Source: Oscillospiraceae bacterium (lineage in GTDB: Bacteria; Bacillota; Clostridia; Oscillospirales; Oscillospiraceae). From it: a stretch of DNA of 13,470 nt. The first letter of the stretch is position 1. Every line of letters starts with the position of its first letter. Shown piece by piece: positions 1 to 13,273 of this stretch. The stretch is from contig JAFSFK010000145.1 in NCBI GenBank assembly GCA_017435245.1, positions 1-13,470 on the forward strand, given 5' to 3'. The notes under the pieces are model-generated. The model searched no databases and was not told the origin of the DNA. It saw only the letters and a program-made list of their open reading frames with translations. A program made the translations under genes and the position numbers.

Positions 1-156
1 CACGGGGAGGGCGGCTTTGATTGCGGGAGCAATCAACTCAGCGCCTCACCGTGTCGCCTCTTTGCCTACTTTCTTGGCGAAACAAGAAAGTAGGTCGCCT
101 ACGGCGAAATCATTTGTACGCAGCATATAACTGCTCGATAACCCGGAATTTAAATT
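1..156. repeat. Partial intergenic hairpin repeat R1 (right end only)
   Basis: Noncoding stretch downstream of the minus-strand operon. It holds three perfect stem-loops: 17-36 (arm TTGATTGC, loop GGGA), 65-94 (12-bp arm CCTACTTTCTTG, 6-nt loop) and 95-107 (TCGCC-TAC-GGCGA). About 135-155, read on the minus strand, gives AATTCCGGGTTATCGAGCAG, the border sequence shared with the other repeats in this window. The left end lies outside the window. No T-tract terminator follows the operon, so these hairpins may serve as its 3' end; that is inference. Confidence 0.7.
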
Positions 157-165
157 TATCACCTA

Positions 166-1119
166 TTATTTCAGCACATAAGGGCAATTTTCGCCCTTTA
201 ATACATCGATGGCATTCCGGACGCTCATCAGACCCATATTGGACACCGCCTCGGCGGTGTGGGCACCGCTGTGGGGCGTGAAGATGACTCTGGGCAGACC
301 CTTCAGAGGAGAATCCAGCAAAGGCTCCTGCTCGAAAGCATCCAGACCCAGACCGCCCAAGTGACCGGACTGAATAGCCTCGGCAGCGGCAGCCTCATCG
401 ATGAGACTGCCACGGGCGGTGTTGATGATGATCACACCCTTTTTCATCTTTTCGATCCGCTCCCGGCTGATCATATGCCGGGTACTGTCGTTGAGAGGCA
501 CGTGCAGAGAAACCACATCGGCGCTCTGCAGCAGCTCCTCCAGCTCCATACGGCGGATGCCGTGTTCGGCTGCAAAGGCTTCGTCAAAGTAGGGGTCGTA
601 GGCCACCACATCCATCTCGAATGCCTTGGCCCGAAGGGCCAGCCGCTTGCCGATGGCACCCATACCCACGATGCCCAGGGTACGCCCGGCCAGCTCCACG
701 CCCTCACTTCTGGGCCACAGGCCGTCAGTGACTGCCTGGTGCAGCTGGGGGATGTTCCGGCAAGCGCAAAGCATCAGCGCAAATGCCAGCTCGCACACGG
801 CGGTGGAGTTGGCGCCGGGGGTGTTGCACACGGCGATGCCCTTGGCCTTGGCAGCCGCCAGATCCACCCGGTCCACGCCCACACCGTAGCGGGAAATGAC
901 CTTAACGCAATCGGGCATTTTCTCGATCACATCGGCAGTGATGTAGTCCAGACCTGCCACATAGGCATCGCAGCCCTGAATGCGCTCCAGGATCTGCTCG
1001 CCAGCCAGAGGCACGCCCAGATCATTGTAAACGATCTCATCAAAGAAGCTCTCCAGCAAGGCTTTGGCCTTGGCGTTCTGGGGCTTTAAGAAAGAAGTGG
1101 AAGTAACCAGCGCTTTCAT
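166..1119 (-). CDS. D-2-hydroxyacid dehydrogenase (phosphoglycerate dehydrogenase-like, no ACT domain)
   Basis: 317-residue NAD-dependent 2-hydroxyacid dehydrogenase, a family that interconverts 2-hydroxy and 2-keto acids in the cytoplasm. Visible features are the Rossmann motif GIVGMGAIG at 149-157 and the catalytic set Arg236 (NTARG), Glu265 (EQEP) and His283 (TPH). The 29-residue Arg-to-Glu spacing equals that of E. coli SerA. It ends without the ACT regulatory domain of serine-biosynthetic SerA, so it need not make serine. The ATG at 1119 was chosen over an in-frame start at 1236 because GAGGAAAC precedes it and the longer form would run deep into the upstream gene. It is the last gene of the operon, 7 nt after the isomerase-like gene, with its ribosome binding site over that stop codon. 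In this context it may reduce or oxidise a 2-keto/2-hydroxy sugar acid (inference). Family is confident; substrate is unknown. Confidence 0.9.
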   Translation of the reverse strand: MKALVTSTSFLKPQNAKAKALLESFFDEIVYNDLGVPLAGEQILERIQGCDAYVAGLDYITADVIEKMPDCVKVISRYGVGVDRVDLAAAKAKGIAVCNTPGANSTAVCELAFALMLCACRNIPQLHQAVTDGLWPRSEGVELAGRTLGIVGMGAIGKRLALRAKAFEMDVVAYDPYFDEAFAAEHGIRRMELEELLQSADVVSLHVPLNDSTRHMISRERIEKMKKGVIIINTARGSLIDEAAAAEAIQSGHLGGLGLDAFEQEPLLDSPLKGLPRVIFTPHSGAHTAEAVSNMGLMSVRNAIDVLKGENCPYVLK

Positions 1120-1126
1120 AGTTTCC

Positions 1127-1729
1127 TCACTTCCAGTTGGGGTTATCGATGATGGCAGGCTTACCGTCCCGCTCCACCAGCAGCTTGCGGTAGCCCTTGG
1201 TCTCGATGGTACCGTAGTCATGACCGGCATCGGCACGGAACACGAAGAAGGTCACCAGCTGCTCATCAGCGCTGACGTTGATGCTGCGGTGGGCGTAACG
1301 CTTGGGAACATAAACCGCCTCGCCGGGACGCAGCTCCTGGGCAGACCAGTCACCCTCGGGATTTTCCATCAGCATATAGCCGTGGCCCTTCAGGCAGTAG
1401 TAGACTTCGCCGGTCTCCAGAATGGTGTGGAAGTGACCCTTGGTGAAGTAGTACTCGTCACCCACCTTGCCGGGATTGACGATGGAGCAGCCGAAGGCCA
1501 GGTCGCCCTCGTGCTCGGGGACGGGCAGGCCGTGGAACTCGTAGATGATCTCGTCATTTTCAGCAACCTTTGCCTGCAGAGCAGCTTCATCTGCGAACAT
1601 GCCGCTCATCTGGCTTAAGTACCGCTTGCCGGTCTGCACAGTCTTGGACAGACCCGTCTTGGGGTCAAAATCGATGGTGCAGCCACGGATAAAATCCAGT
1701 GCCTTTTCAGAAACATTAAATCCAGCCAT
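1127..1729 (-). CDS. Cupin-type (archaeal-type) glucose-6-phosphate isomerase homologue
   Basis: 200-residue single cupin resembling the metal-dependent glucose-6-phosphate isomerases first described in archaea (PF06560 type), unrelated to the usual bacterial Pgi fold. The metal ligands are visible: His99 and His101 in GHFH, Glu108 in GEVYY, and His147 in KRYAHRS. Their spacing matches the Pyrococcus furiosus enzyme (H88, H90, E97, H136) with a constant offset of 11. Members interconvert fructose-6-phosphate and glucose-6-phosphate with Fe, Mn or a similar metal. The ATG at 1729 follows a near-perfect AAGGAGGAGA, 13 nt after the preceding stop. Beside a sugar kinase and several dehydrogenases it probably isomerises a phosphorylated aldose/ketose pair of the operon's substrate rather than acting in central glycolysis (inference). 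Confidence 0.88.
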   Translation of the reverse strand: MAGFNVSEKALDFIRGCTIDFDPKTGLSKTVQTGKRYLSQMSGMFADEAALQAKVAENDEIIYEFHGLPVPEHEGDLAFGCSIVNPGKVGDEYYFTKGHFHTILETGEVYYCLKGHGYMLMENPEGDWSAQELRPGEAVYVPKRYAHRSINVSADEQLVTFFVFRADAGHDYGTIETKGYRKLLVERDGKPAIIDNPNWK

Positions 1730-1742
1730 TTTGATCTCCTCC

Positions 1743-2687
1743 TTAGTTCACTTCCGCAGCGATGCGGGACATTTCCTTCAGCCGCTCGCCCAAAATTTCA
1801 GTGTGGAACACATCGGCGATGACCTGAGTCCAGCCGTAAATGAAGTACATCCAGCCATCGATGACTGTCACGCCACGGCTGTCTGCCTGTGCCAGTGCCT
1901 GGTGCATAAACTTCCGTTCGCCCCGGTAGTTGAGCTCCCAAACCAGGGCATTTTCCGGGAATACGGCGGCATCGGTCAGCGGCGAACCGGGACGGTCCTT
2001 GCCCAGGCCGGTGGCGTTGATGACCAAAGATCCCTTACCCATCTTGGCCATCTGCGCATCGTTCTGACCCGGTTCAGGCGTTAAGTAATACTCGGCGGGA
2101 ATGGTGCCGGGATAGAACTTGTCATTGATGTGCTGCAGTTCCTCCAGGCGGGCCCGGCTGCGGTTGCAGACCACGATCTTGGCAGGAGAATTCTCCTTGC
2201 TGAAGTTTCTCATATAGTAAGAGCACATGCTGATGCAGCTGCCGCCCGCACCCATAATGAACACGCCGGCCTCAGGATTGTTCTTCCAGTAGTTCTCGGG
2301 AACATATTCTTCCATCGCCATACCGCAGGTGATGGGATCCTTGGCATCGCAGCAGAACTTATCGCCGTCCTTGTAAATAGAGGAGATCTCGCCGAACTGC
2401 TTGGCGTAAGTGCCTTCCACGTCAAACAGATCGTGGGCAGCGTTGTACAGGTCGATTTTGTGGGTGGTGACCAGCGCACCCAGGGACAGAGGATCGTCCT
2501 TGAGGAACTGGACCACTTCCCGGTAAACCTCCGGCTTTTCGTGGATAGCGATATCGATGCCCTTCATCACAGCGTTTTCAAAGCCCAGCGCCTTCGCCCA
2601 CTTGGGGAACACCTTCATAATGGAAGAAGATCCGGTGGTAACGCCGATAAAATACATAGTCGGCTGGGTTGCTTTTTCCAGAATCAT
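1743..2687 (-). CDS. Shikimate dehydrogenase-like (AroE-family) oxidoreductase, divergent
   Basis: 314 residues with the AroE two-domain plan: an N-terminal substrate-binding domain (about 10-125) and a C-terminal Rossmann domain (about 135-290). Family marks are Lys77 in VTTHK, the expected catalytic lysine; Asp117, the best match to the catalytic aspartate; GAGGS at 146-150; NRSR at 175-178, an arginine pattern that usually favours NADP; and NATGLG at 224-229. It departs from true shikimate dehydrogenases: the usual NTD around the catalytic aspartate is AKD, and the late DG..M...QG block reads DGWMYFIYGW, without the substrate-binding glutamine. The operon has no other shikimate-pathway gene, so a polyol, cyclitol or keto-sugar acid is more likely than shikimate (inference). 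The start is 1 nt after the hydrolase stop, with AGGAGG inside that gene's last codons, implying translational coupling. Confidence 0.82.
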   Translation of the reverse strand: MILEKATQPTMYFIGVTTGSSSIMKVFPKWAKALGFENAVMKGIDIAIHEKPEVYREVVQFLKDDPLSLGALVTTHKIDLYNAAHDLFDVEGTYAKQFGEISSIYKDGDKFCCDAKDPITCGMAMEEYVPENYWKNNPEAGVFIMGAGGSCISMCSYYMRNFSKENSPAKIVVCNRSRARLEELQHINDKFYPGTIPAEYYLTPEPGQNDAQMAKMGKGSLVINATGLGKDRPGSPLTDAAVFPENALVWELNYRGERKFMHQALAQADSRGVTVIDGWMYFIYGWTQVIADVFHTEILGERLKEMSRIAAEVN

Positions 2688-2688
2688 T

Positions 2689-3630
2689 TTATTTTCCTCC
2701 TAGGCACAAAATCTGTGCAGCATTTGTTTCATACATTTTCCGAATGCTTTTCTCCGGTATTCCGGCAGAAATCAGCATATTTTTGTAATCTTTTAATAGA
2801 TAATCAAGGCCCATATCGGCAGCACCGTAACTGCGCAGCCGGGCGGCAGTGGTGTCCAGACTCAGCACGATTCTTTCGTCAAGACCTGCTTCGCACATTT
2901 TGCCGATCAGCGCCAGCTCCTGAGCGTGGGATACATATTTGAGCCGGTTCACGCTGTCGTAGCACAGGTAGCACCCGGCAGCCATCACTTCCTTATGCAG
3001 TCCGGGATCGGGGATCGTCCTGTCCAGATGGCAGATGAGGATCCGGTGGGCAGGAACGCCGCAGCCTTCAAAAAGCTTCAGCATCCGGGTAAGGTCGGTG
3101 TCCTTCTCCGTATGGATCAGCACCGGGGCACCGGTCTGAGCAGCAGTTGCCGCCACTGCGGAAAAGAGTTTTTGGTTTACATAATCTTCCAATCCCCCAT
3201 CGTCCCAAGCAGCCTTCACCATACCGGCCTTGGCACTGCCGCACTCGGTCATGCCCTCGGTGATCTCCCGGCAGAACCGATCCACCAGCGCAGTTTCGGT
3301 CAATGCCCCCAGATCTTCTTCAGCAAAGGCCTTTTTGTGAAAACCGGTAACGGCGACGATGTTCACACCACTGTCTTTACTCAGCCGCAAAAGCTTTTCT
3401 GCATCCCGTCCAAAACCGCCGGGCTGGGCATCTACGATGGTAGCGCCCCCGGCAAGGCGGTAGTCCTTTAGCTCCTGCAAAGACTTATTGTAATCGTCCA
3501 TACACAGGGCAGGATTCAGTTCATATCCCGGACCCTTGCGCAGCCAGATATGCTCGTGGCACTGGATGTGTCCCAGCTGCTCCGCCGGCAGATCGCCGGT
3601 CACCGTGCGGATCTTAGAATTCGATAACAT
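2689..3630 (-). CDS. Phosphotriesterase-family metallohydrolase, probable sugar lactonase
   Basis: 313-residue TIM-barrel hydrolase of the phosphotriesterase family (PF02126). The full binuclear metal site is visible: His25 and His27 in the N-terminal HEH, Lys139 as the expected carbamylated bridging lysine in GMVKAAWD, His173 in LIHTEKD, His201 in ICHLD and Asp259 in LSLDTT. Despite the family name, several bacterial members from sugar operons hydrolyse sugar lactones, including phosphorylated ones. Here the neighbours supply two sugar dehydrogenases that could make the lactone and a kinase that could add the phosphate, so lactonase is the favoured role (inference). The start at 3630 is preceded by AAGGG at 8 nt and overlaps the dehydrogenase gene by 17 nt. 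An upstream in-frame start at 3657 lacks a ribosome binding site. Confidence 0.87.
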   Translation of the reverse strand: MLSNSKIRTVTGDLPAEQLGHIQCHEHIWLRKGPGYELNPALCMDDYNKSLQELKDYRLAGGATIVDAQPGGFGRDAEKLLRLSKDSGVNIVAVTGFHKKAFAEEDLGALTETALVDRFCREITEGMTECGSAKAGMVKAAWDDGGLEDYVNQKLFSAVAATAAQTGAPVLIHTEKDTDLTRMLKLFEGCGVPAHRILICHLDRTIPDPGLHKEVMAAGCYLCYDSVNRLKYVSHAQELALIGKMCEAGLDERIVLSLDTTAARLRSYGAADMGLDYLLKDYKNMLISAGIPEKSIRKMYETNAAQILCLGGK

Positions 3631-4651
3631 GCTTGATACCCTTAGCCTGGCGGGCATTCTCGAAGGCGGTGAGAACGTCCTTCAGCTGGTAGCGGTGGGT
3701 GATCATCTCGTTGACGTTCAGCAGACCCAGGGAGACGAACTCCAGCGTCTTGCGGAACTGAGAGATGGAGGACCGGGTGGAGCCGGTAACGTACAGCTCC
3801 CGGTAGTGGATCAGGTTGGTGTCGATGGCAACAGGCTGCTTGGCAGCGGGGATACCGCCGAAGTAGTTGACACGGCCGCCGTAGTTCATCATAGGCAGCA
3901 CGGATGCCTGTACCGCAGGTACAGGGCAGGCGGTGATGGCAATATCCAGACCTCTGCCATTCGTCCACTTCTTGACGAAACCGGCAAGGTCGTCGCCGCA
4001 ATAGGTTTCTACGAAAGGCAGCTTTTTCTTGACCGCTTCCAAACGCTCAGCGGAGATATCGTTCATCAGCACCGCAGCGCCTGCCATATGTAAAAGCATG
4101 GCGTGGCAGAAACCGATGGGACCTGCGCCCACCACCATGGCGTATTCGCCGGGGTGCACAAAACACTTGGTAAAGCCGTTGTAGGCGCAGCTCAAAGGCT
4201 CAGTGACCGCAGCCTCAGCGGGGCTAACGCCCTTGGGCAGAACCATCAGATTGCCCCGGGTGACGGCGTCGGCAGGGATCTTCACATACTCGGCGAAAGC
4301 ACCGTCCATATTGATACCGAATGCCCGGTACTCGTCGCACAGGTGGAACTTACCGTCCACGCAGCGGTCACAAATACCGCAGCCGATATTGGGCTGCATC
4401 GCCACCTGCATACCCTCTTTGTAGAAGGGAACATTCTTGCCCACCTTCACGATGGTACCGGCAAACTCGTGGCCCAGGATCAGGGGATGCTCCGCATCCA
4501 CGCCCGTCTGGCCGTTTTGCCACATACGCACGTCGGTGCCGCAGACGGCGGCGGAGTCGGTTTTCAGCAGGATCTCATCATCATTGATCTGGGGAACGGG
4601 GACCTCCTCCAGGCGAATATCCTGAGGACCGTAAAGTCTGAGTGCTAACAT
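3614..4651 (-). CDS. Zinc-dependent medium-chain alcohol/polyol dehydrogenase
   Basis: 345-residue member of the medium-chain dehydrogenase/reductase family (sorbitol/threonine dehydrogenase-like), which oxidises a secondary alcohol of a polyol, sugar or hydroxyacid with NAD(P). The catalytic zinc site is intact (Cys37, the GHE motif with His61/Glu62, and Glu151), and so is the structural zinc lobe (Cys91, Cys94, Cys97, Cys105). The nucleotide fold shows GAGPIG at 175-180, with Asp198 after the second strand, which usually means NAD rather than NADP. ATG 4651 is preferred over an adjacent TTG at 4654 because AAGGAGG sits 7 nt upstream. The gap to the preceding gene is 12 nt, with the ribosome binding site over its stop codon. 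Likely the second oxidation step of the pathway (inference). Confidence 0.92.
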   Translation of the reverse strand: MLALRLYGPQDIRLEEVPVPQINDDEILLKTDSAAVCGTDVRMWQNGQTGVDAEHPLILGHEFAGTIVKVGKNVPFYKEGMQVAMQPNIGCGICDRCVDGKFHLCDEYRAFGINMDGAFAEYVKIPADAVTRGNLMVLPKGVSPAEAAVTEPLSCAYNGFTKCFVHPGEYAMVVGAGPIGFCHAMLLHMAGAAVLMNDISAERLEAVKKKLPFVETYCGDDLAGFVKKWTNGRGLDIAITACPVPAVQASVLPMMNYGGRVNYFGGIPAAKQPVAIDTNLIHYRELYVTGSTRSSISQFRKTLEFVSLGLLNVNEMITHRYQLKDVLTAFENARQAKGIKHVIEF

Positions 4652-4663
4652 CAATTTACCTCC

Positions 4664-5686
4664 TTATCTGACGGTAACGATCTTCTTCTCGGTAATGGAG
4701 CAGTTGCCTGCCTCCACGGTGGCAACAGCCATACGGCCATCCACACCACTGACTTCCACGGGGGTGTCATTGAGAACGGCATTCACAAAGGAAGTATCCT
4801 CTGCCAGATAAGCATCGATGAACAGGGTCATCCAGCTGTTGATAAACGGCGTATTGGTGCCGTTTTCCACGGTGGTGCAGTGGACAAATTCCTTGTCGGA
4901 GCGGCCCACATTGATCTTTCCCTTGGTACCGATGATCTCCATCTTGGAGTCATAGCCGTACTGGACATAGGCAGCGCCGTCAATACAGAAGTGAACGCCG
5001 CTCTTCAGCGTGCCGTTCATCAAGACGCTGTCATAGTAGTCGGGATACTGCTCCTTTGCCTCGGGGTTGCGGAAATTTCCGGCAACAGCGTAAACGCTCT
5101 CGATGTCACTGCCGGCCATCCAGCGGACAGCATCGATATCGTGGCTGTTGACCTCTGCCAGGATGCCGTTGGACATCTTGATATCGTACATCCAGGGACG
5201 GGGCTTGCTGGGACCACGGGTGTTGGAGTGGATCTGCACCAGCTCACCGATGGCACCGCTGTCCACCAACCGCTTAGCCTCCCGGAAGCTGGCGTCGAAA
5301 CGGCGCATAAAGCCGATCTGCAGCTTGACCTCGGCCTTGTCGCAGGCTTCGATCATCTCATCGCATTCCTCTACGGTCATAGCCATAGGCTTCTCGCAGA
5401 AGATGTGCTTGCCGGCGGCGGCGCAGTCGATGACGATTTGCTTGTGCAGGTCTGTGGGTGCAACTACCACAACCGCATCCACCTGGGGATCGTTTAAAAT
5501 TTCGTGATAATCGGTGTAGTATTTGTCAATGCCCATTTCCTCGGCAGCAGCCTTGGCAGCAGCCTCTACTGCGTCAACGCAGGCCACCATCCGGGCATTT
5601 TCGATCTTATTTTTGTAGTTTCTTGCGTGGATCATACCGGCACGACCGCAGCCGATGAGGCAGATGCCCAGTTTCTTCTGTTCCAT
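4664..5686 (-). CDS. Gfo/Idh/MocA family sugar or inositol dehydrogenase
   Basis: 340-residue NAD(P)-dependent dehydrogenase with an N-terminal Rossmann fold (GCGRAG at 12-17) and the C-terminal alpha/beta domain of glucose-fructose oxidoreductase and myo-inositol 2-dehydrogenase (IolG). The catalytic EKP lysine is Lys99. The family's Asp-x3-His pair appears as Glu178-x3-His182 in EVNSHDID, a conservative Asp-to-Glu change. Members oxidise a ring or side-chain hydroxyl of sugars, inositols or sugar acids. ATG 5686 was chosen because GGAGG lies 8 nt upstream; an ATG at 5692 is only 2 nt from it. It is the second gene, 23 nt after the kinase. IolG-like inositol dehydrogenase is one candidate role, but other inositol genes are absent from the window. 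Confidence 0.9.
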   Translation of the reverse strand: MEQKKLGICLIGCGRAGMIHARNYKNKIENARMVACVDAVEAAAKAAAEEMGIDKYYTDYHEILNDPQVDAVVVVAPTDLHKQIVIDCAAAGKHIFCEKPMAMTVEECDEMIEACDKAEVKLQIGFMRRFDASFREAKRLVDSGAIGELVQIHSNTRGPSKPRPWMYDIKMSNGILAEVNSHDIDAVRWMAGSDIESVYAVAGNFRNPEAKEQYPDYYDSVLMNGTLKSGVHFCIDGAAYVQYGYDSKMEIIGTKGKINVGRSDKEFVHCTTVENGTNTPFINSWMTLFIDAYLAEDTSFVNAVLNDTPVEVSGVDGRMAVATVEAGNCSITEKKIVTVR

Positions 5687-5709
5687 AATCATATCCTCCA
5701 AAATCTAAA

Positions 5710-7218
5710 TTACAGTTTATTCAGCTTGGCGTACAGATCCTTCATCTGGACGGTTGCTTCTTCGTAAAGGTCCACATAGGGCACATATGCCTTGTGGACG
5801 GCTTCATCGGGGGTGAATACCTTGCCGGTCTGTATATTGGCCCGGGCAGCTTCCTTGATGTCCGCCACCGCACCGGTTCCGGCAGCCGCCAGCAGCGCCG
5901 TGCCCCACAGGGCCACATCGCTGCGGCTCAGGAGCGCAAAGCCGTGACCGGTAACATCTGCCAGGATCTGGGGCCAGACAGCAGATTTGGCACCGCCGCC
6001 AATGAGCTTGATGGTCTGTCCCTTTAAGGAGCTGTAATTGCTTTCCAGGCTCCGCAGAGTCAGCGCCAGATCATAGCTGAAGCCCTCCAGCAGACTGCGA
6101 TAGAAATGGCCCTTGTGGTGATTCCAGGTGTGCCCCATGATCAGCCCCTTCTGCTCCGAGTCAAAGGGCATAGCGCTGCCCCCCAAAAGACCGATATTCA
6201 GCATATTGCCGCTGCCCAGCGGTGCTTTAGACGCAAGCTCCTCTGCCTTTTGGAAATCCTTGTCCATAAAGGTCTCCACAAACCAGTCGATGGCGATGCC
6301 GGAGCCCTGGATATACTTATGGGCGTAATAGCCGGAGGAATCCATAGCGCCGATCACATCGTAGTTGCGTTTTTTCTCATCCAGCTTCACATCCTCCACC
6401 ATAGCGCTGACAGCGCCGTAGGAGCTTGCCTCGAAGATCATATCGCCATCGTCAAAGACCGCCGAGCCGATGCATCCGCTGACCTTGTCACCGGCACCGG
6501 CAACCAGAGGAATGCCGGATTTCAGCCCCAGCTGCTTTGCCATCTCATCACTTAAGTAGCCACCCACATCGGTACCGTTCACGATCCTGGGCAGCAGCGC
6601 TTTATCCACGCCCATTTTTTCGCAAAGCTCCTGGGACCAGCTGCGGCTGCGGATATCCGCCATCCCTGTCCAGGTGATGAGGGAATTGTCCATACAGGCA
6701 TCTGCCACCGGGATCCCGGAGAGCTTACCGATAACATAGCCGTTTAACATCACATATTTTGCGATGCGCTTATGCTCCTGGGGAAACTCGTTTTTAAACC
6801 AGTCGTACTTGGCGCACATCACCGGGGCGTTGGTGCCGCAGATGGAGAACAGATCGTCGGCAAACAGCTCTCTCTGCCGGTTGGCGTAGGGAAGATACCG
6901 GCTGTCCAGAGAGCAGGACCAGGTGGTCACATCCTCCCAGTTCTCATCCACCCCCATCGCACCGGCCATCTGACCGGTAAAGGCCACGGCGCACACATCC
7001 TCTGCCCTTTCCCCCAGCTGGACAGCACTCTTGCGGATGCAGCGCAGAACGCTGCCGTAAAGCTCCGGTCCGTGCTGTAGGAAAATACCGGGTCCCGGAC
7101 GCTCATCCGGCACCGGCTCGCTGGCCATCGCCAGGCAGTTTCCCCCAAGATCGTACACACCGGTCTTGATGAAGCTGGTTCCCAGATCCACCGCCATAAA
7201 CAGCTTGGAACCTCTCAT
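5710..7218 (-). CDS. FGGY-family carbohydrate kinase (xylulokinase/gluconokinase-like)
   Basis: 502-residue ATP-dependent carbohydrate kinase of the two-domain FGGY family, which phosphorylates ketoses, sugar acids or polyols. Visible features are the N-terminal phosphate-binding DLGTS at 11-15, TGQM at 81-84 as in xylulokinases, the expected catalytic base Asp244 in AGAGDKVSG, and the C-terminal ATP-binding GGGAKS at 407-412 followed by ILADVTG. Length is normal for the family. ATG 7218 has AAAGGGG about 7 nt upstream; the longer reading frame back to 7407 crosses the promoter and an intergenic palindrome and was rejected. It is the first gene of the operon, with a leader of about 40 nt carrying tandem 10-bp repeats. 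The substrate cannot be read from sequence; a keto-sugar or oxidised polyol made by the neighbouring dehydrogenases is plausible. Confidence 0.92.
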   Translation of the reverse strand: MRGSKLFMAVDLGTSFIKTGVYDLGGNCLAMASEPVPDERPGPGIFLQHGPELYGSVLRCIRKSAVQLGERAEDVCAVAFTGQMAGAMGVDENWEDVTTWSCSLDSRYLPYANRQRELFADDLFSICGTNAPVMCAKYDWFKNEFPQEHKRIAKYVMLNGYVIGKLSGIPVADACMDNSLITWTGMADIRSRSWSQELCEKMGVDKALLPRIVNGTDVGGYLSDEMAKQLGLKSGIPLVAGAGDKVSGCIGSAVFDDGDMIFEASSYGAVSAMVEDVKLDEKKRNYDVIGAMDSSGYYAHKYIQGSGIAIDWFVETFMDKDFQKAEELASKAPLGSGNMLNIGLLGGSAMPFDSEQKGLIMGHTWNHHKGHFYRSLLEGFSYDLALTLRSLESNYSSLKGQTIKLIGGGAKSAVWPQILADVTGHGFALLSRSDVALWGTALLAAAGTGAVADIKEAARANIQTGKVFTPDEAVHKAYVPYVDLYEEATVQMKDLYAKLNKL

Positions 7219-7244
7219 ACCCAATCCCCTTTCAATTTTCGGTT

Positions 7245-7264
7245 GTTTTCGTTTGTTTTCGTTT
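7245..7264 (-). promoter_or_regulatory. Tandem 10-bp direct repeat, putative operator over the transcription start
   Basis: On the minus strand AAACGAAAAC occurs twice back to back, with a third copy (AACCGAAAAT, two mismatches) at 7235-7244. The period of about one helical turn and the position directly after the -10 box, across the expected start site, fit a repressor operator. TTTCGTTT-like half-sites are common for DeoR-family sugar regulators, but the regulator here is unknown. Confidence 0.5.
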
Positions 7265-7293
7265 ATTGTAGCATTTAACAAAATAAAAATCAA
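7265..7293 (-). promoter_or_regulatory. Sigma-A promoter of the seven-gene operon
   Basis: On the minus strand the -35 box TTGATT (7293-7288) and the -10 box TACAAT (7270-7265) are separated by exactly 17 nt. The expected start is near 7258, leaving a leader of about 40 nt before the kinase ATG. Confidence 0.75.
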
Positions 7294-7294
7294 T

Positions 7295-7310
7295 ACGCAA
7301 ACACGCAAAC
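7295..7310 (-). promoter_or_regulatory. Tandem 8-bp direct repeat just upstream of the -35 box
   Basis: GTTTGCGT is repeated twice without a gap on the minus strand, 1 nt upstream of the -35 box. Its reverse complement, ACGCAAAC, differs by one base from ACGAAAAC in the repeats beyond the -10 box, so the promoter is bracketed by inverted pairs of similar half-sites. An activator or repressor site is likely; the protein is not encoded in the window as far as I can tell. Confidence 0.45.
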
Positions 7311-7321
7311 CTGAAAACAAA

Positions 7322-7390
7322 TTCCAGTTTATCGAGCTGTCAAAGCCTCCCCTGTGTAAGGGGAGGCTTTGACAACTCGATAAACCGGAA
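7322..7390. repeat. Near-perfect 69-nt palindromic repeat R2
   Basis: Two 31-nt arms (7322-7352 and 7360-7390) are reverse complements at 29 of 31 positions around the 7-nt loop TGTGTAA. The outer part of each arm is the shared border (about TTCCGGTTTATCGAG). The inner part is a GC-rich hairpin with CCTCCCC/GGGGAGG. It lies between the divergent operon and transporter promoters. ACAAA occurs next to the left arm and 3 nt beyond the right arm, too weak to call a target-site duplication. No coding potential. Confidence 0.85.
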
Positions 7391-7413
7391 CCTACAAATT
7401 TCGCCAAATTCCG

Positions 7414-7442
7414 TTGTAATCACACAAACTATATGCTATGAT
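7414..7442 (+). promoter_or_regulatory. Sigma-A promoter of the ZIP transporter gene
   Basis: The -35 box TTGTAA (7414-7419), a 17-nt spacer and the -10 box TATGAT (7437-7442) with an extended TG at 7434-7435 point to a plus-strand promoter. The expected start is about 20 nt before the AGGAGG of the transporter gene. No clear metalloregulator palindrome was recognised. Confidence 0.7.
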
Positions 7443-7471
7443 AATTTAAATAACACACAGGAGGCACAACT

Positions 7472-8311
7472 ATGGGTGTGATTGAAACCTTGATCGTCAC
7501 CACGGCACTGGCCGGCGTACTGGGCACCGGTCTTGGTGGTCTTGTGGGGGCCCTGCTTCAGAAGGACTCCAACCGAATGGTCAGCCTGCTTTTAAGCTTC
7601 GCCGGCGGCGTAATGCTCAGCGTTGTATGCTTTGACCTTGTGATCGAAGCCATTGAAACCAATGCAGGTCTGTGGGCAGTGGCACTTTCTATTATCCTTG
7701 GCGTGACAGTGACCTATATTCTCAATTATCTCATTGACCGGAAGACCAATCCGGAGGTGCCTCATATCGACGCCAGCCACCCCAAAACGGCAGACGATCT
7801 GGACGAGCTGATCCACAGTGACCATTTGGAACAGCACTACGCCAAGCACGACGGCAAGCTGGGCCTGTTCATCGCCGGTATCGTGATGGCCTGTGCCATT
7901 GCGCTGCACAATGTTCCGGAGGGTATGACCATCGGCGCATCCTATGCCAGCGACAACGGTGTGATGGGCAGTGCCGCTCTGGCGCTGGCGATCCTCATTG
8001 GTCTGCACAACATCCCCGAGGGCATGGCGGTTTCCGTACCTCTGATCAGCGGCGGTATGAAGAAATGGAAAGCGGTGCTGATCACCGCCTGTTCCGGAAT
8101 CCCCACCATTTTGGGCGCTCTGCTGGGTTATGTGCTGGGTGAGATCGGACCCATGGGTCTGACGGTCAGCCTGGGTTTTGCCAGCGGCGCAATGCTGTAT
8201 GTGGTTTTTGGCGAGATCCTTCCTCAATCCATACTGATGTACCACAGCAAGCTCCCTGCCTTCTCCACCATCGTCGGCATTCTGGTGGGTATGCTCATCG
8301 TATTTCTGTAA
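7472..8311 (+). CDS. ZIP-family divalent metal transporter (ZupT/GufA-like)
   Basis: 279-residue integral membrane protein with about eight hydrophobic segments. A cytoplasmic-type loop rich in His, Asp and Glu (about 95-130) separates the third and fourth segments, as in ZIP transporters. The two metal-binding helices carry the signature HNVPEG (about 146-151) and HNIPEG (about 182-187). The family moves Zn, Fe, Mn or related ions into the cytoplasm. The ATG at 7472 is preceded by AGGAGG at a good distance. It has its own promoter and terminator and is a single-gene unit divergent from the catabolic operon. That operon encodes several metalloenzymes (zinc dehydrogenase, binuclear hydrolase, cupin), but no functional link is shown. 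Which metal is carried cannot be told from sequence. Confidence 0.92.
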   Translation: MGVIETLIVTTALAGVLGTGLGGLVGALLQKDSNRMVSLLLSFAGGVMLSVVCFDLVIEAIETNAGLWAVALSIILGVTVTYILNYLIDRKTNPEVPHIDASHPKTADDLDELIHSDHLEQHYAKHDGKLGLFIAGIVMACAIALHNVPEGMTIGASYASDNGVMGSAALALAILIGLHNIPEGMAVSVPLISGGMKKWKAVLITACSGIPTILGALLGYVLGEIGPMGLTVSLGFASGAMLYVVFGEILPQSILMYHSKLPAFSTIVGILVGMLIVFL

Positions 8312-8359: not shown

Positions 8360-10132
8360 TTACTTTGCGTAGTCTTCCCCGTACATATCCGCAACCGCCT
8401 GGTGGGCAGCCAGCTGCAGCTGGGCAGCCAGGTCCGCATCCAGCTCGTATGTCAAGCCGGTGGAAATATTGCCAACACAGCTCTTGCCCAGCAGTGTCTC
8501 ATAGAACACGCAGGCGTTGAGGTAGCGGCCGCCGGTGGTGGTTCCGGCGTGGAAGTGGTCGGTCAGGCAGGGATCCTCCGTCACCAGGGGATTGGCTCTG
8601 GCGATCTGCCAGGCATCGCCGCAGGGGATCTGAGGCACGCCGTTCTGCTGGGCAAGATAGTCGGACACTGCCTTGATCTGGTTGTACTGATTGGTCTGTA
8701 CCGCTTCCGTGCCGATGCTTGCATGGGCGGTGCTGTATGCCCAGGTCTGATACCAATAAAGCTGGGCATCGGGATTATTCTGCTTGAAGTGATCGAACAG
8801 GTTCTTCACATAGGGCGTACAGGAATTCAGTGCCGCCTCATAAGTGCCGGTACGTTCCGGAGAGAAGTGCTGCTGCAGAGTGATGATCTCCCAGTCCTCA
8901 GCCTCCAGAGCAGCGCTGAGGGTGGTAATGCCGTAGTCCGTCCAGCGGCCCAGAGCGTTATGGACATAATATTCATAGTTGGGGGTATCGTCCTGGAGCC
9001 AGGTCCAGTGCTGCTCCACATTGCAGCCGCCGTAGTACAGGTTTGCAACGAACAGCTCTTCGCCATTGGCCTGCGCCATCTTGTGCAGCTCCTCACCCAG
9101 CCGCAGGCTGAAGGAGTTGCCCACCAGCAGGATCTTTTTGCCGGACTGCTGGATGTTGGTGCTCCAGTGGTTCAGATCTTTGTAGGTAATATCCCCCACC
9201 GTCACAGTGGCTTTCTGAGAGTCATACCCCAGCATATTTCCGGTGTAGGGGATCGCCACAGAGGTGTTGGGAGAGGCTGCGTAGGAGTAGACCTCCACAT
9301 TCTCTCCGATGTTGACCTGACCCATCGTGCAGCCGCTGGCGCAGCCGAAAATGGTACCGGTAGCGCCGTTTTTATTTTTGGAGCTGATCAGTGTGGAATT
9401 ATCCACGCTGACGCTCATTGCGCTATAGTCAGTGTTGCTCATATGGAAGCTGAAACAGACGTAATTTTCCGCAATCAGGGTAGAACCGGTGATCCGGCTC
9501 TGATAAGCGGCATTTTTCTCGTAGACCGTGACACAGGGACCTGCCAAAGCTCGCACCGTCATATTTTCCACCACGATAGCACCCTTAGCCACCCGGATGC
9601 CCACATCATAGTGGACCAGTGTGCCGTTTTTGACGGTAGCCGTCTGATTTTCCGTACCGGCGGCCTGGATCTGAATACCATAGCCGGTGGTAAGATTGGT
9701 CTGGACGGTGTAGCCGTTCAGATCAAAGGTACAGGAATAGGGCAATACGATGGGCGCATCGGTGGTAATATCCTTGCGCAGGGTGATAACGGTATTGCCG
9801 GTAGAGGATACCGCCGCTACCATATCTGCCACAGAGGAAACCTGGGTGGTGATGGCTCCGTTTTGCACCAGAGCGATGGTATTTTCAGAGGTCCCCGGCT
9901 CTCTGTCCAGGACCTGGTCCAGCACATCTTCAATGCCGGCATTGCCTTTGCCTTCCAGCTGCTCCGCAGTCAGATTGCGCAGTCCCAACTGTTCTTCCAC
10001 CAGCATTTGGGCATCGAAAACCGTGACCTTGCCGTCACCGTTCACATCGCCCAGCACCGCAGCGGCAACACCCAGAGCCAATCCCAGGATCAGTACAATG
10101 CTTACGGACCAGACAATTATCTTTCTGTTCAT
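8360..10132 (-). CDS. Exported protein: dockerin-like repeat, beta-helix-like region and SGNH/DUF4886-like hydrolase
   Basis: 590 residues. Residues 1-27 form a signal peptide or signal anchor (Arg3, Lys4, then a hydrophobic run ending near VAAAV). Directly after it comes one complete dockerin-type calcium loop, DVNGDGKVTVFD at 29-40, then a degenerate second half (about 60-76) without the loop acids. Residues about 85-320 are Gly/Asn/Thr/Val-rich with spaced short strands, suggesting a parallel beta-helix. From about 332 an SGNH-hydrolase fold begins: GNSFS with candidate nucleophile Ser340, and Asp525/His528 in LTDHFHAG as the Asp-x2-His pair. Together these suggest a surface esterase or carbohydrate-modifying enzyme, substrate unknown. 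Dockerin repeats usually lie at the C-terminus, so the N-terminal position is unusual. The start at 10132 has GGGAGG upstream. It forms a single-gene unit with its own promoter. Confidence 0.85.
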   Translation of the reverse strand: MNRKIIVWSVSIVLILGLALGVAAAVLGDVNGDGKVTVFDAQMLVEEQLGLRNLTAEQLEGKGNAGIEDVLDQVLDREPGTSENTIALVQNGAITTQVSSVADMVAAVSSTGNTVITLRKDITTDAPIVLPYSCTFDLNGYTVQTNLTTGYGIQIQAAGTENQTATVKNGTLVHYDVGIRVAKGAIVVENMTVRALAGPCVTVYEKNAAYQSRITGSTLIAENYVCFSFHMSNTDYSAMSVSVDNSTLISSKNKNGATGTIFGCASGCTMGQVNIGENVEVYSYAASPNTSVAIPYTGNMLGYDSQKATVTVGDITYKDLNHWSTNIQQSGKKILLVGNSFSLRLGEELHKMAQANGEELFVANLYYGGCNVEQHWTWLQDDTPNYEYYVHNALGRWTDYGITTLSAALEAEDWEIITLQQHFSPERTGTYEAALNSCTPYVKNLFDHFKQNNPDAQLYWYQTWAYSTAHASIGTEAVQTNQYNQIKAVSDYLAQQNGVPQIPCGDAWQIARANPLVTEDPCLTDHFHAGTTTGGRYLNACVFYETLLGKSCVGNISTGLTYELDADLAAQLQLAAHQAVADMYGEDYAK

Positions 10133-10212: not shown

Positions 10213-10282
10213 CATCTTCAAAGTCCAGTTTATCGAGCAGTCAATGTAGGGGCGAGCATCGACAAATCGAAATTTGAAGATG
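10213..10282. repeat. Inverted-repeat element R3, with hairpin-rich flank to about 10376
   Basis: CATCTTCAAA (10213-10222) and its reverse complement (10273-10282) bound a 70-nt element. Extending the arms to 24 nt gives 19 matching positions and includes the shared border (CCAGTTTATCGAG). The rest of the noncoding stretch to 10376 holds a GAGCGGT/ACCGCTC pairing (10293-10326) and a TGTCC-GCCG-GGACA hairpin (10333-10346). A degenerate border copy on the minus strand (AATTCCGATTTGCCGG) lies near 10352-10372, so the element may be compound. No gene was seen in 10133-10510. Confidence 0.65.
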
Positions 10283-10459
10283 TAACGATACCGAGCGGTA
10301 ATCCACCGGTTATCGCCGCACCGCTCACGAATTGTCCGCCGGGACATCCCGACCGGCAAATCGGAATTTTGTTTCCAGAATCTGTGTATTTTTCCGAAAA
10401 GAAACAGGGTTAATGTTTCTTTTGCGGGCAAAACTAGCCTTGCGGAAAGAAAAAGTGTG

Positions 10460-10491
10460 CTTTCTTCGGAAAGTACATCTTTCCAAGAAAG
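10460..10491 (+). promoter_or_regulatory. Stem-loop in the leader of the spore protein gene
   Basis: CTTTCTT-c-GGAAAG (10460-10473) pairs with CTTTCCAAGAAAG (10479-10491) as a 13-bp stem with one bulged C and the 5-nt loop TACAT. The AAGGAG ribosome binding site starts 5 nt after the stem. A further inverted repeat, AAAAGAAAC/GTTTCTTTT, lies at 10397-10423. It could stabilise the mRNA or modulate translation. No convincing sporulation-sigma promoter was identified upstream. Confidence 0.55.
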
Positions 10492-10510
10492 CAAAAAGGA
10501 GAGAATCATT

Positions 10511-10705
10511 ATGAAGAGCAATAACCAGATCAACATTCCCCAGGCACGTCAGGCAATGGATCAGTTCAAGATGCAGGCAGCTCAGGAAGTCGGCGTGAAC
10601 CTGACCAACGGCTACAATGGTCACCTGACCTCCCGTGAGGCCGGCTCCGTCGGCGGCCAGATGGTCAAGAAGATGATCGAGGCTTACGAGCAGGGTCTGC
10701 AGTAA
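10511..10705 (+). CDS. Small acid-soluble spore protein, alpha/beta type
   Basis: 64-residue alpha/beta-type SASP. These proteins coat DNA in the spore core, protect it from UV and heat, and are degraded at germination. Family blocks are visible: QAMDQFKMQAAQEVGVNL (15-31 region) and the DNA-contacting SREAGSVGGQMVKKMI (about 41-56). At the site corresponding to the germination-protease motif EIASE this protein reads MQAAQE, so the first glutamate of the usual motif is glutamine. ATG 10511 was chosen because AAGGAG precedes it by 9 nt; the frame stays open upstream but that part crosses the leader hairpin. It is the best evidence in the window that the host forms endospores. Expression late in the forespore is expected from family knowledge. 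Confidence 0.95.
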   Translation: MKSNNQINIPQARQAMDQFKMQAAQEVGVNLTNGYNGHLTSREAGSVGGQMVKKMIEAYEQGLQ

Positions 10706-10772: not shown

Positions 10773-10801
10773 AATTTCAGAAATCACGAGAGGTGATACC
10801 T

Positions 10802-11164
10802 ATGCGCATTCAGGAATCCGGTGAAATGTATCTGGAGACCATTCACGTTCTGTCTAAGAAGAACGGTCACGTCCGTTCTGTGGATATCAGCGAGCATATG
10901 GGCTACTCCAAACCCAGTGTCAGCCGGGCAGTAGGTCTTTTGAAAAACGGCGGCTATATCGAGGTGGATCCCAACGGTTATATCACGCTGACGGATGTCG
11001 GTCTTGCTACGGCGCAGAAGATCTACGAACGGCACACAGTGCTGACTCAGTTTTTGATCGGTTTGGGCGTAAAAGCGGAAACTGCCGCTGAGGATGCCTG
11101 CAAACTGGAACACGCCATCAGCGACGAATCTCTGTCAGCCATCAAAGCATTTATTAAAAGATGA
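10802..11164 (+). CDS. DtxR/MntR-family metal-dependent transcriptional regulator
   Basis: 120 residues. An N-terminal winged helix-turn-helix (about 5-65; SVDISEHMGYSKPSVSRAVGLL) is followed by the helical metal-binding and dimerisation domain (about 66-120). The likely primary metal ligands are Met9, Cys100, Glu103 and His104 (DACKLEHAISDE). This set corresponds to Met10, Cys102, Glu105 and His106 of DtxR/IdeR, whereas Bacillus MntR has Asp8 and Glu99 at the first two. An ancillary-site histidine is kept (His78), but the position of DtxR His98 is Ala. There is no C-terminal SH3-like domain. The ATG at 10802 follows GAGGTGAT; a GTG at 10793 lies inside that ribosome binding site. It is a single-gene unit with its own promoter and a strong terminator. 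It may control metal uptake genes such as the ZIP transporter 2.5 kb away, which is inference. Confidence 0.9.
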   Translation: MRIQESGEMYLETIHVLSKKNGHVRSVDISEHMGYSKPSVSRAVGLLKNGGYIEVDPNGYITLTDVGLATAQKIYERHTVLTQFLIGLGVKAETAAEDACKLEHAISDESLSAIKAFIKR

Positions 11165-11644: not shown

Positions 11645-11674
11645 TTGGGTATCAAGATCACGGAGGCAATGCTT

Positions 11675-13273
11675 ATGATCAGCCCCTATTACATTAATCT
11701 GCAAGGTAAATACGGCAACCGGATGGAAGAGTATATCGGTCTTGTGGACCTGCTTTCTCATATGGACCGGCTGGGCATTTGGCAGACCACCGCCACCTGT
11801 ATCCGCACCAACGCCCGGGAGTCTAACCTCTGCCTGCTGGAGGATCTCAAAAACACCCCCGGTGCCAAGGGGCGTGTGATCCCCGCTTTTCTGGCAGAGC
11901 CCCATATCTATGTTTCCAAGGGCGAAATGGAGCACCTTGAAATGTGCCTGCGGGACTGTGGCCCTGCCTGTATCCGGCTGATCCCCACCAAGGGAGGCTA
12001 CCGGCTGAAGGAAATGGAGCAGGTGCTGCTGCGGCTGGAAGAATATCAGCCCATCATCCTCATCGACCGCAAGGATATGGACACCGACGCAAACTATGAC
12101 GATCTGGTGTTCCTTGCCCAGCGGTTCCCGTGCCTTAAATTTGTGGTACAGCGGGTATTCTGGTCCAGAATGCACTATGTTTTCGATGCAATGCAGCGGG
12201 CAGGCAATATTTATATTGACACCGGCTGGCTCCACACGGAGCGGGGTACGGAAATGCTCTGCGAGCAATTCTCCCCGGAGCGGGTGCTGTTCAGTCTGGG
12301 ACTGCGCTCCAACAACGGTGCGGCCATCGCCGGCCTGTGCTACGCTGACCTGTCCCAGAAGATCAAGGACGCCATTGCCTGGGATAATTTTGCCGCTCTG
12401 TTCGATGAAAAAAATCAGGAAATACTACGGACCAACCGTCACTCTATCCCCAACAAGGTTGCCAACAGCTACTGGAACCGGTATCTGGAGGAAAAACCTA
12501 TCGGCACCCGGATCATCGACTCCCACGCCCACATCTCCCCCCATATCGCCGGCTGGTTCGCTCCCAATAACGATATAGTGGAGGCCACTCCCCTGTTCTA
12601 TCAGAAGATGGAGCGGCTGGGTATGGAAAAGGCCATTGTATCCCAGCCAGCGGCGGTGTACGAGGATCCCCGTCAGCCCAACACCCACCTGCTGGAATGC
12701 ACCCGGGAATACGCAGATAAAATCAGCGGCTACCTGTCCTATATTCCCTTCGGCAGTGATCTGTACACCAAAGAATATATGGACAAAATGTTCGCCACCG
12801 GATTCTTCATCGGTTTTAAGACTATGCCCGGCTACAACGGCATCGGTCTGGGGGACGAGCGCTATATCCCAATGTTCGAATATGCCAAAAAGCACGCTCT
12901 TCCCATCCTGCTCCACACCTGGGGAGCAAAGGATATCCGCAGCTTTGCAGAGGTTTCTGCCCGGTGGCCGGGGGTGAAGATCATTCTGGGACACTCCGGC
13001 GGTCTGGAGGACGGCCGGCAGGAATGCCATAAGGTAGCGCAGGATCCCAAGTATCCCGACTTGTATTTCGAGTTCTGCGGCAGCTTCTTCAGCACCGTTT
13101 CCTGGAAGGATTCCCTGAAATTTATCGACTATCGCCGTGTTCTCTTCGGCACCGATGCCAACCTGCACGATGCTGCCTGGGAGCTGGGCCGCCTGCTCAG
13201 CGAGGATATTCCCGACGAACAGCTGGATGCCATCCTCAGCGGCAACGCAGTCAATCTTTTTGGTCTTAAATAA
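11675..13273 (+). CDS. Tandem-domain amidohydrolase (PF04909-like), N-terminal domain catalytically dead
   Basis: 532 residues forming two copies of an amidohydrolase-2 TIM-barrel. The C-terminal copy (about 278-532) keeps the metal site: HAH at 284-286 (IIDSHAH), His414 (ILLHTW), His440 (IILGHSGG) and Asp494 (VLFGTDANLHD). The N-terminal copy (about 1-250) has matching landmarks but no ligands: the start reads MISPYYINLQ instead of DSHAH, LKFVVQRVFW replaces VKIILGHSGG, and VLFSLGLRSN replaces VLFGTDANLH. The family includes metal-dependent hydrolases and non-oxidative decarboxylases; the substrate here is unknown. The dead half may be a structural partner or allosteric domain (inference). 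ATG 11675 was chosen because GGAGG lies 8 nt upstream; ATG 11669 is too close, and the frame open from 11597 would overlap the promoter. Single-gene unit with its own terminator. Confidence 0.88.
   Translation: MISPYYINLQGKYGNRMEEYIGLVDLLSHMDRLGIWQTTATCIRTNARESNLCLLEDLKNTPGAKGRVIPAFLAEPHIYVSKGEMEHLEMCLRDCGPACIRLIPTKGGYRLKEMEQVLLRLEEYQPIILIDRKDMDTDANYDDLVFLAQRFPCLKFVVQRVFWSRMHYVFDAMQRAGNIYIDTGWLHTERGTEMLCEQFSPERVLFSLGLRSNNGAAIAGLCYADLSQKIKDAIAWDNFAALFDEKNQEILRTNRHSIPNKVANSYWNRYLEEKPIGTRIIDSHAHISPHIAGWFAPNNDIVEATPLFYQKMERLGMEKAIVSQPAAVYEDPRQPNTHLLECTREYADKISGYLSYIPFGSDLYTKEYMDKMFATGFFIGFKTMPGYNGIGLGDERYIPMFEYAKKHALPILLHTWGAKDIRSFAEVSARWPGVKIILGHSGGLEDGRQECHKVAQDPKYPDLYFEFCGSFFSTVSWKDSLKFIDYRRVLFGTDANLHDAAWELGRLLSEDIPDEQLDAILSGNAVNLFGLK

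Follow-up and report, generated by a model that had tools for sequence, protein, structure and literature searches.

A seven-gene operon probably for carbohydrate breakdown

The genome of a gut-type Oscillospiraceae bacterium (assembly GCA_017435245.1) carries, on contig JAFSFK010000145.1, seven closely spaced genes for carbohydrate enzymes, within a stretch of 13,470 nucleotides that was analyzed at its full length and is called the window here. They occupy positions 7218 to 166 of the minus strand and encode in order an FGGY-family kinase, two dehydrogenases (GFO and ZADH), a PTE-family hydrolase, an AroE-like oxidoreductase, a cupin isomerase and a 2-hydroxyacid dehydrogenase (HADH). A preliminary description of this DNA had proposed a carbohydrate operon of seven enzymes, and the genes themselves are confirmed: all seven reading frames are open, start with ATG and lack internal stops, and family motifs are present in each of the seven proteins.

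5710..7218, minus strand: FGGY-family carbohydrate kinase, 502 amino acids, first gene (Pfam FGGY_N and FGGY_C)
4664..5686, minus strand: GFO, an IolG-like dehydrogenase of the Gfo/Idh/MocA family, 340 amino acids (TIGR04380; motifs EKP and SHDID)
3614..4651, minus strand: ZADH, a zinc-dependent medium-chain dehydrogenase, 345 amino acids (Pfam ADH_N and ADH_zinc_N)
2689..3630, minus strand: PTE-family metal-dependent hydrolase, 313 amino acids, starting 17 nucleotides inside the previous gene (Pfam PTE, 159 bits)
1743..2687, minus strand: AroE-like NAD(P) oxidoreductase, 314 amino acids (profile comparison with AroE and YdiB; no Pfam match)
1127..1729, minus strand: cupin of the phosphoglucose isomerase family (PF06560), 200 amino acids (Pfam GPI, 107 bits, over the threshold of 20.7)
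166..1119, minus strand: HADH, a D-2-hydroxyacid dehydrogenase resembling phosphoglycerate dehydrogenase (PGDH), 317 amino acids, last gene (NCBIfam; motifs GMGAIG, NTARGS, DAFEQEP and TPHSG)
7265..7293, minus strand: promoter-like site TTGATT-17-TACAAT with an extended TG, a consensus match that ends 46 nucleotides before the first ATG

The gaps between consecutive genes are, in order, 23, 12, -17, 1, 13 and 7 nucleotides. Five junctions thus have the 1 to 23 nucleotide spacing first described, and at the remaining one the ZADH and PTE genes overlap by 17 nucleotides. Purine-rich, Shine-Dalgarno-like stretches precede six of the starts; three of them cross the preceding stop codon, as had been claimed for the whole set, the others do not, and no clear Shine-Dalgarno sequence was found ahead of the PTE start. 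Scanning positions 1-7600 returned 3 promoters against a mean of 4.6 in shuffled sequence and 7 terminators against a mean of 7.1, neither count being above the shuffles. Because the scan did not rise above the shuffles, transcription of the seven as one unit is inferred from their spacing and conservation. Neither an Rfam family nor a tRNA gene was detected in the window.

Distribution and a recurring core

Among the genomes of named species the search confirmed 109 relatives, of which 80 loci were analyzed further, many of them parts of contigs. Open reading frames in these loci were called mechanically and some may have been missed or given wrong starts, so that presence counts are approximate and vary slightly from one count to another. 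The titles of the 80 loci name Clostridia, Planctomycetes, Hydrogenedentes, Spirochaetes, Alphaproteobacteria, Chloroflexi, one Lokiarchaeon and others, and 15 plasmid records, mostly of Rhizobiaceae, also carry the AroE-like gene; viral contigs yielded no relative of the AroE-like protein. In the window's family the AroE-like protein is matched (E <= 0.001) in 10 of 300 genomes, 7 strongly (E < 1e-100, the window's own included) and 3 by weak partial matches, and in a sample of the phylum 4 of 398 genomes, again with the window's own, reach E <= 1e-60. Of 101 genomes of the genus, one has a GFO match at that threshold, and it is the window's own. The operon is sporadic, as expected for an accessory pathway that moves horizontally.

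A neighbor of 213 amino acids in many relatives is Eda, the aldolase of 2-keto-3-deoxy-6-phosphogluconate (KDPG) type, and a second hydrolase, UlaG-like, appears in others. Cluster counts around the AroE-like gene cover 79 relatives plus the window (L078 was excluded, its AroE-like gene not being called, and the window's own cupin was lost to a filter on score per length): the cupin occurs in 58, HADH in 53, Eda in 38, PTE in 34 and the UlaG-like hydrolase in 14. Anywhere in the stretches of the 80 relatives, the cupin is found in 65, HADH in 55, the FGGY kinase in 52, PTE in 33, ZADH in 30, GFO in 19 and the UlaG-like hydrolase in 15. The preliminary description had noted that the operon lacks a permease, aldolase, dehydratase or regulator; this holds for the seven encoded proteins, and the relatives supply a KDPG-type aldolase (43 of 80), sugar transporters (from annotation and Pfam) and regulators (GntR from Pfam, DeoR-like by eye). 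A conserved seven-gene order with a linked transporter, suggested as a check at the outset, was found in part: there are linked transporters and a recurring core but no fixed set of seven, since all seven families meet in only 3 of the 80 loci (L021, L053, L066), or 5 when either hydrolase is accepted, and not always in one operon. The AroE-like protein, cupin, HADH, one of the two hydrolases and a KDPG-type aldolase occur together in 30 of 80. The commonest adjacency is the AroE-like gene directly before the cupin gene (42 of 80), and the two are joined in a fusion protein (P0054, on 11 contigs listed) that is 77% and 83% identical to the AroE-like protein and cupin of the window. HADH is associated with Eda and with PTE (p 4e-5 each, by statistics that ignore phylogeny), and ZADH is present in 16 of the 17 clusters that have GFO.

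Individual regions illustrate how the set is varied. In Bythopirellula (L072), GFO, ZADH, FGGY, AroE-like, cupin, HADH, Eda and a metallo-beta-lactamase-type (MBL) hydrolase are followed by a TIM-barrel epimerase, a protein of the fucose isomerase family and a sugar transporter; the epimerase clusters with a protein that exceeds the D-psicose 3-epimerase cut-off. Four of six alphaproteobacterial plasmid regions that were read (L092, L093, L094, L097) carry, in this order, the cupin, Eda, a 'shikimate dehydrogenase', a PGDH-like protein and an MBL hydrolase. Close to these genes lie an ABC sugar importer and a kinase of FGGY or xylulose type, and three of the four regions also have enzymes of the short-chain dehydrogenase or glycerol dehydrogenase type. 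L095 has no Eda in its plasmid region, and L096 has a different gene order. Some loci carry, near the core, a D-psicose 3-epimerase, a fucose-isomerase-like protein and ribose-type sugar-binding proteins.

A conserved family of 446 amino acids also occurs near the core in 12 loci (including L013:3767-5107 and L025:13208-14548). It has no significant Pfam match, and one of two members tested showed a weak likeness to the fucose isomerase C-terminal domain (E 0.006).

The protein distances of the AroE-like protein, cupin, HADH, Eda and PTE are rank-correlated at 0.57 to 0.79, and each of the ten pairs exceeds all 200 permutations. GFO and ZADH correlate at 0.80, and ZADH with the core at 0.01-0.19, low values that stem partly from mixed paralogues in the ZADH cluster. 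These data suggest a division into feeder proteins (FGGY kinase, GFO, ZADH) and a core (PTE, AroE-like, cupin, HADH). The division rests mainly on presence and absence, because most core loci lack GFO, and its boundary is not clean. That the seven are unrelated metabolic genes sharing nothing more than a transcript is very improbable: gene content does differ between loci, as such a view would have it, but it is contradicted by conserved neighborhoods that recur over several phyla, by the fusion and by the co-variation.

The fusion invites another view, in which the AroE-like enzyme would reduce a 3-keto-hexose-6-phosphate and the cupin would send the product to glycolysis, leaving HADH, lactonase and Eda to another branch. 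Shikimate dehydrogenase itself acts on a ring ketone, a protein resembling levoglucosan dehydrogenase (342 bits of 650) lies near the core in 6 of 80 clusters, and in 7 of 80 there is a TIM-barrel protein that weakly resembles IolE. Such a salvage pair is nevertheless quite improbable, and a single pathway is favored over it, because HADH, PTE and Eda co-vary with the AroE-like protein (0.57, 0.74 and 0.74) about as tightly as the cupin does (0.61).

Family assignments of the core and feeder proteins

None of the seven proteins exceeds the cut-off of any NCBIfam model listed, and for that reason no protein of the set can be placed in a named equivalog. The AroE-like protein has no Pfam match up to E 5 and scores 29 bits against TIGR00507 (aroE; cut-off 200); its best model of this kind reached 38 of 295. 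Profile alignment by hhalign to E. coli AroE and YdiB gave E 7e-8 and aligned Asp117 (motif AKDP) with Asp102, and Lys77 was paired with Lys65 by motif only, not by hhalign. Both Lys77 and Asp117 are invariant in 68 sequences, and Lys65/Asp102 is the catalytic pair of shikimate dehydrogenase. A role as the shikimate enzyme of the aromatic pathway was dropped on the evidence of 20 carrier genomes, 16 behind the 80 loci (picked for spread) and 4 from the window's family with its own included, several of them metagenome-assembled and possibly incomplete. In 19 of the 20 a separate AroE-type match of 142-246 bits was found, over the cut-off in 14, the exception being the genome of L037; in the window's own genome it scores 152 bits, below the cut-off. 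The 'shikimate dehydrogenase' label that this family bears in 8 of the 15 plasmid records, and in all four named proteins among the 120 homologues listed, is a misannotation. Homologues scored at E <= 0.001 number 7,993, not all of them necessarily of the same family.

The cupin matches a solved glucose-6-phosphate isomerase (4lta, E 2e-52) and belongs to the PF06560 family by its score and by its metal ligands, His-x-His, Glu and His, which are kept in GHFH, GEVY and YAHR. Tyr152 and His158 are the proton-transfer residues of the phosphoglucose isomerase PfPGI (PMC6627849). The positions taken as their equivalents were placed on the YPADAGH-type motif of these cupins by motif and spacing. The window cupin keeps the histidine and has Phe for the tyrosine. 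Phe also stands at that position in 53 of 55 locus cupins with a readable motif (of 66 examined, 11 were unreadable); in 5 of 6 plasmid cupins the histidine position is Gln. The cupin is not taken for the housekeeping phosphoglucose isomerase, a PF00342 match being present in 18 of 20 carrier genomes.

For the PTE-family protein the best NCBIfam model is a phospho-furanose lactonase (NF045706), at 134 bits well under the cut-off of 630, and the best PDB relatives are 3msr/3ovg and 3pnz, whose activities also enter the case for phosphorylated intermediates made below. The motifs HEH, VKAA (Lys), IHTEK, CHLDR and SLDTT, which we take to form the binuclear metal site of PTE enzymes, are all found. 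From its sequence the protein is probably a lactonase. One UlaG-like protein scanned against NCBIfam matched a generic metal-dependent hydrolase (66 bits) and then L-ascorbate-6-phosphate lactonase (37 of 306). PTE and the UlaG-like hydrolase never share a locus (0 of 80), with lineage as a confounder, and the two are proposed, again as sequence-based candidates, to be alternatives for one lactone-opening step. The UlaG-like hydrolase of Shinella (L096:14470-15813) forms a single protein with a low-molecular-weight phosphatase domain, which hints at dephosphorylation beside the lactone step.

HADH scores 301 bits against the PGDH model TIGR01327 (cut-off 454) and 231 against glyoxylate reductase (455). 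For the FGGY kinase, the XylB model gives 204 bits (cut-off 380) and GntK 168 (649), and the closest solved relative is a gluconate kinase (3gbt, E 3e-35). GFO reaches 288 bits with inositol 2-dehydrogenase (TIGR04380, cut-off 355; next family 168), and its closest solved relatives are 3ezy (titled 'Dehydrogenase'), presumably the IolG of Thermotoga maritima, and the inositol dehydrogenases 4mkx/4n54. ZADH is nearly tied between IolM (201 bits, cut-off 450) and threonine dehydrogenase (196, cut-off 380).

A proposed Entner-Doudoroff-like route

The gene set probably serves sugar-acid catabolism that ends in a KDPG-type aldolase, by a route that was not found described. Tentatively, the operon may break down a rare hexose, hexitol or cyclitol by an Entner-Doudoroff-like route that does without the canonical dehydratase. 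GFO and ZADH would oxidize or reduce the compound after its import, the FGGY kinase would phosphorylate the resulting ketose, and the cupin would interconvert ketose-6-phosphate and aldose-6-phosphate. The AroE-like enzyme would then oxidize the product of the cupin to a phosphorylated lactone, to be opened by the PTE lactonase (in other phyla by the UlaG-like hydrolase), giving a phosphoaldonate and thus a 2-hydroxy acid. Oxidation of this acid by the PGDH-like HADH would yield a 2-keto acid. Its cleavage to glyceraldehyde-3-phosphate and a three-carbon keto acid would fall to a KDPG-type aldolase whose gene lies elsewhere in the genome.

The succession of phosphorylated lactone, 2-hydroxy acid, 2-keto acid and aldol cleavage is suggested by the family chemistry of lactonase, HADH and Eda together with the association of their genes. 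Phosphorylated intermediates are proposed because of the kinship of the cupin to phosphoglucose isomerase, the presence of a kinase, Ser or Thr at Eda position 184, and the models that match both hydrolases (weakly for the UlaG-like one). The preliminary description had envisaged oxidation of a sugar, cyclitol or polyol to a lactone, ring opening, isomerization and one phosphorylation. Lactone step, isomerization and phosphorylation remain plausible, but a lactone made from a free sugar or cyclitol is less likely than a phosphorylated one, because the best named models of both hydrolases are phospho-sugar lactonases, both matched below cut-off. Genes, motifs, co-occurrence, co-variation, the fusion, the alternation of hydrolases and the Eda genes are the observations; the individual reactions and their order, the substrate and the feeder-core division are all interpretations of them.

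The aldolase is the weak point of this proposal. The 42 Edas of the main type (six of a second type were left out of the count) all have Glu45, Arg49, Lys133, Thr161 and Gly162, with Thr73 in 40 and Ser184 in 32 (Thr in 10); we take these to be the catalytic positions of KDPG aldolase, 184 being the anion-binding one. The second type, from 6 loci, differs at the Arg49 and Ser184 positions. The window's own genome encodes two Pfam Aldolase (Eda) proteins, of 224 and 123.5 bits, and thus has a KDPG-type aldolase; one of the two shares 66% identity with the L035 Eda.

Several observations weigh against the proposed route. Neither of these Edas is on the contig of the operon, and after each comes an open reading frame that looks by eye like a kinase of 2-keto-3-deoxygluconate (KDG). 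The active site of the main Eda type is canonical, like that of an ordinary KDPG aldolase preferring a 3-deoxy substrate. A 2-keto aldonate made by HADH would need an aldolase that accepts a 3-hydroxy substrate and yields hydroxypyruvate. No conserved dehydratase was found near the core in the related loci. On the feeder side, GFO is closer to inositol dehydrogenases than to sugar or polyol enzymes, and it co-varies with the AroE-like protein (0.57) and cupin (0.66) as core members do, with HADH at only 0.22. The window-type kinase co-varies with the core at 0.42-0.50 and with GFO at 0.17, and 28 of the 80 locus stretches, some cut by contig ends, have no FGGY kinase.

Edd, the canonical dehydratase, is over cut-off in 3 of the 20 carrier genomes, all Alphaproteobacteria, with no match in the window's own genome (63% complete). 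Its supplying the aldolase from elsewhere was judged unlikely outside the sampled Alphaproteobacteria. With a canonical Eda and so few Edd matches, there are three possibilities: the aldolase may accept a 3-hydroxy substrate, a core enzyme may remove water, or a divergent dehydratase may act from elsewhere. The second of these could take the form of a cryptic dehydration, with the cupin or the AroE-like enzyme removing water from a phosphosugar and a dehydrogenase and the lactonase turning the 3-deoxy product into KDPG. The canonical residues of the main Eda type, the scarcity of Edd and the replaced proton-transfer positions of the cupins (Phe for Tyr152, Gln for His158 on plasmids) would all suit it, but the second dehydrogenase is left without a clear job, and proteins of the ILVD/EDD family occur in 18 of the 20 carriers (1-7 matches each, the dehydratase searches covering this family and IolE), so that the water could instead be removed elsewhere by a divergent sugar-acid dehydratase. 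We know of no precedent for a dehydratase of the cupin isomerase or AroE type acting on hexose phosphates, and a cryptic dehydration appears decidedly unlikely.

The Entner-Doudoroff-like proposal can be put in a more specific form, as a widespread, dehydratase-free counterpart of that pathway: oxidation by an AroE-fold enzyme, opening by a PTE- or UlaG-type lactonase, oxidation at C2 by a PGDH-type enzyme and cleavage to glyceraldehyde-3-phosphate and hydroxypyruvate, the whole forming a shared lower pathway into which rare hexitols, ketoses and cyclitols would enter through feeders of their own. In this full form it is unlikely to hold, and the Eda residues, which show no sign of a hydroxypyruvate pocket, count against it. 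Split transketolase-like subunits (recognized by eye) lie near the core at L039:8265-10053 and also in L013, L042 and L073. Transketolase can use hydroxypyruvate, and these neighbors would suit the dehydratase-free model.

As to substrate, hexitols or ketohexoses and inositols lead as candidates, on the strength of sequence likeness. GFO points to inositols. Hexitols and ketohexoses are suggested by the psicose epimerase, by the fucose isomerase family and by one alphaproteobacterial importer with a binding protein close to 4ry9; the ligand of 4ry9 is taken to be D-talitol, for which the literature search gave no confirming paper. A common core with exchangeable feeders would reconcile these pointers.

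The inositol pointer could also be taken at face value. The inositol pathway of T. maritima runs through IolG, IolM, IolN and IolO, and in a route of that kind GFO would make scyllo-inosose, ZADH a diketo-inositol and the PTE protein, replacing IolN, a 5-keto-hexonate, which the AroE-like enzyme, cupin, HADH and kinase would take to KDPG. GFO best matches inositol 2-dehydrogenase and 3ezy, IolM is the best NCBIfam model of ZADH, ZADH accompanies GFO in nearly all of its clusters, and GFO co-varies with the AroE-like protein and cupin. ZADH scores nearly as well for threonine dehydrogenase, however, many PTE clusters lack GFO, and some GFO/ZADH clusters (L013, L025, L075) have neither PTE nor the UlaG-like hydrolase. 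IolN has no match in the window's own genome, which is 63% complete, and is over cut-off in 3 of the 20 carriers (L040, L061, L067), none with GFO in the locus. Routes from 5-keto-L-gluconate to KDPG do exist, as a study of Luteolibacter LG18 describes, and the LG18 route uses a dehydratase (PMC12632266). Taken together, the inositol route is possible but rather unlikely.

Comparison with known pathways

The Entner-Doudoroff pathway (kinase, Pgi, Zwf, Pgl, Edd, Eda) resembles the operon in having a kinase, an enzyme of the phosphoglucose isomerase type, a dehydrogenase, a probable lactonase and, in the relatives, an Eda-type aldolase. It differs in that the dehydrogenase and lactonase of the operon would come from unrelated families and that Edd is absent from the operon, a 2-hydroxyacid dehydrogenase standing in its place. 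With the Thermotoga inositol pathway the operon shares adjacent IolG-like and weakly IolM-like dehydrogenases, but it lacks IolN and IolO and adds the FGGY kinase, AroE-like protein, cupin, HADH and PTE-family hydrolase. IolE, the dehydratase of the classical iol pathway, gave a 19-bit partial match in the window's incomplete genome and is over cut-off in 3 of 20 carriers. Alphaproteobacterial core clusters have ABC sugar importers and often polyol-type dehydrogenases, as in the D-altritol and galactitol catabolism of Agrobacterium, which presumably relies on a kinase of the PfkB family together with a PF08013 epimerase and lacks a core of this kind. The L-glucose/L-galactose pathway of LG18 likewise has upstream dehydrogenases, one kinase and a terminal KDPG aldolase, but it uses the altronate dehydratase LguB, a C4 epimerase and a KDG kinase that consumes pyrophosphate (PMC12632266). 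In the text of that study the word 'cupin' occurs 0 times, and the enzymes listed include no AroE-like or PTE protein, although these two names were not searched for (PMC12632266). None of the four pathways (classical iol, Thermotoga inositol, LG18 L-glucose, altritol) fits all the genes. The preliminary description had recognized no known gene set, and no paper on this combination was among the results listed from the open-licence literature searched, which in one case were 20 of 185.

Other features of the window

A near-perfect palindrome with 32-nucleotide arms lies ahead of the operon at 7322-7390, with related copies in other intergenic gaps at 130-154, 10214-10281 and 13311-13348 and the core TTTATCGAG; together they are a dispersed palindromic element. 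Further genes of the window are as follows.

7472-8311, plus strand: ZIP-type transporter (ZupT, 141 bits, below the cut-off of 252)
8360-10132, minus strand: DUF4886 protein, 590 amino acids, with a weak, below-cut-off dockerin-like stretch near the N-terminus, and on that basis possibly secreted
10457-10705, plus strand: open reading frame of 82 amino acids that reads by eye like a small acid-soluble spore protein, which suggests a spore-forming host
10793-11164, plus strand: regulator of the iron-dependent repressor family
11663-13273, plus strand: amidohydrolase, 536 amino acids, its first half without Pfam match (the listed frame from 11597 has 558 amino acids)

Significance

Found from Clostridia to a single Lokiarchaeon, this enzyme set probably represents an undescribed way of breaking down unusual sugars. 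Settling this pathway would correct the annotation of many homologues and add an activity to the shikimate dehydrogenase fold, and it would show which diet- or plant-derived sugar or inositol the carriers use.

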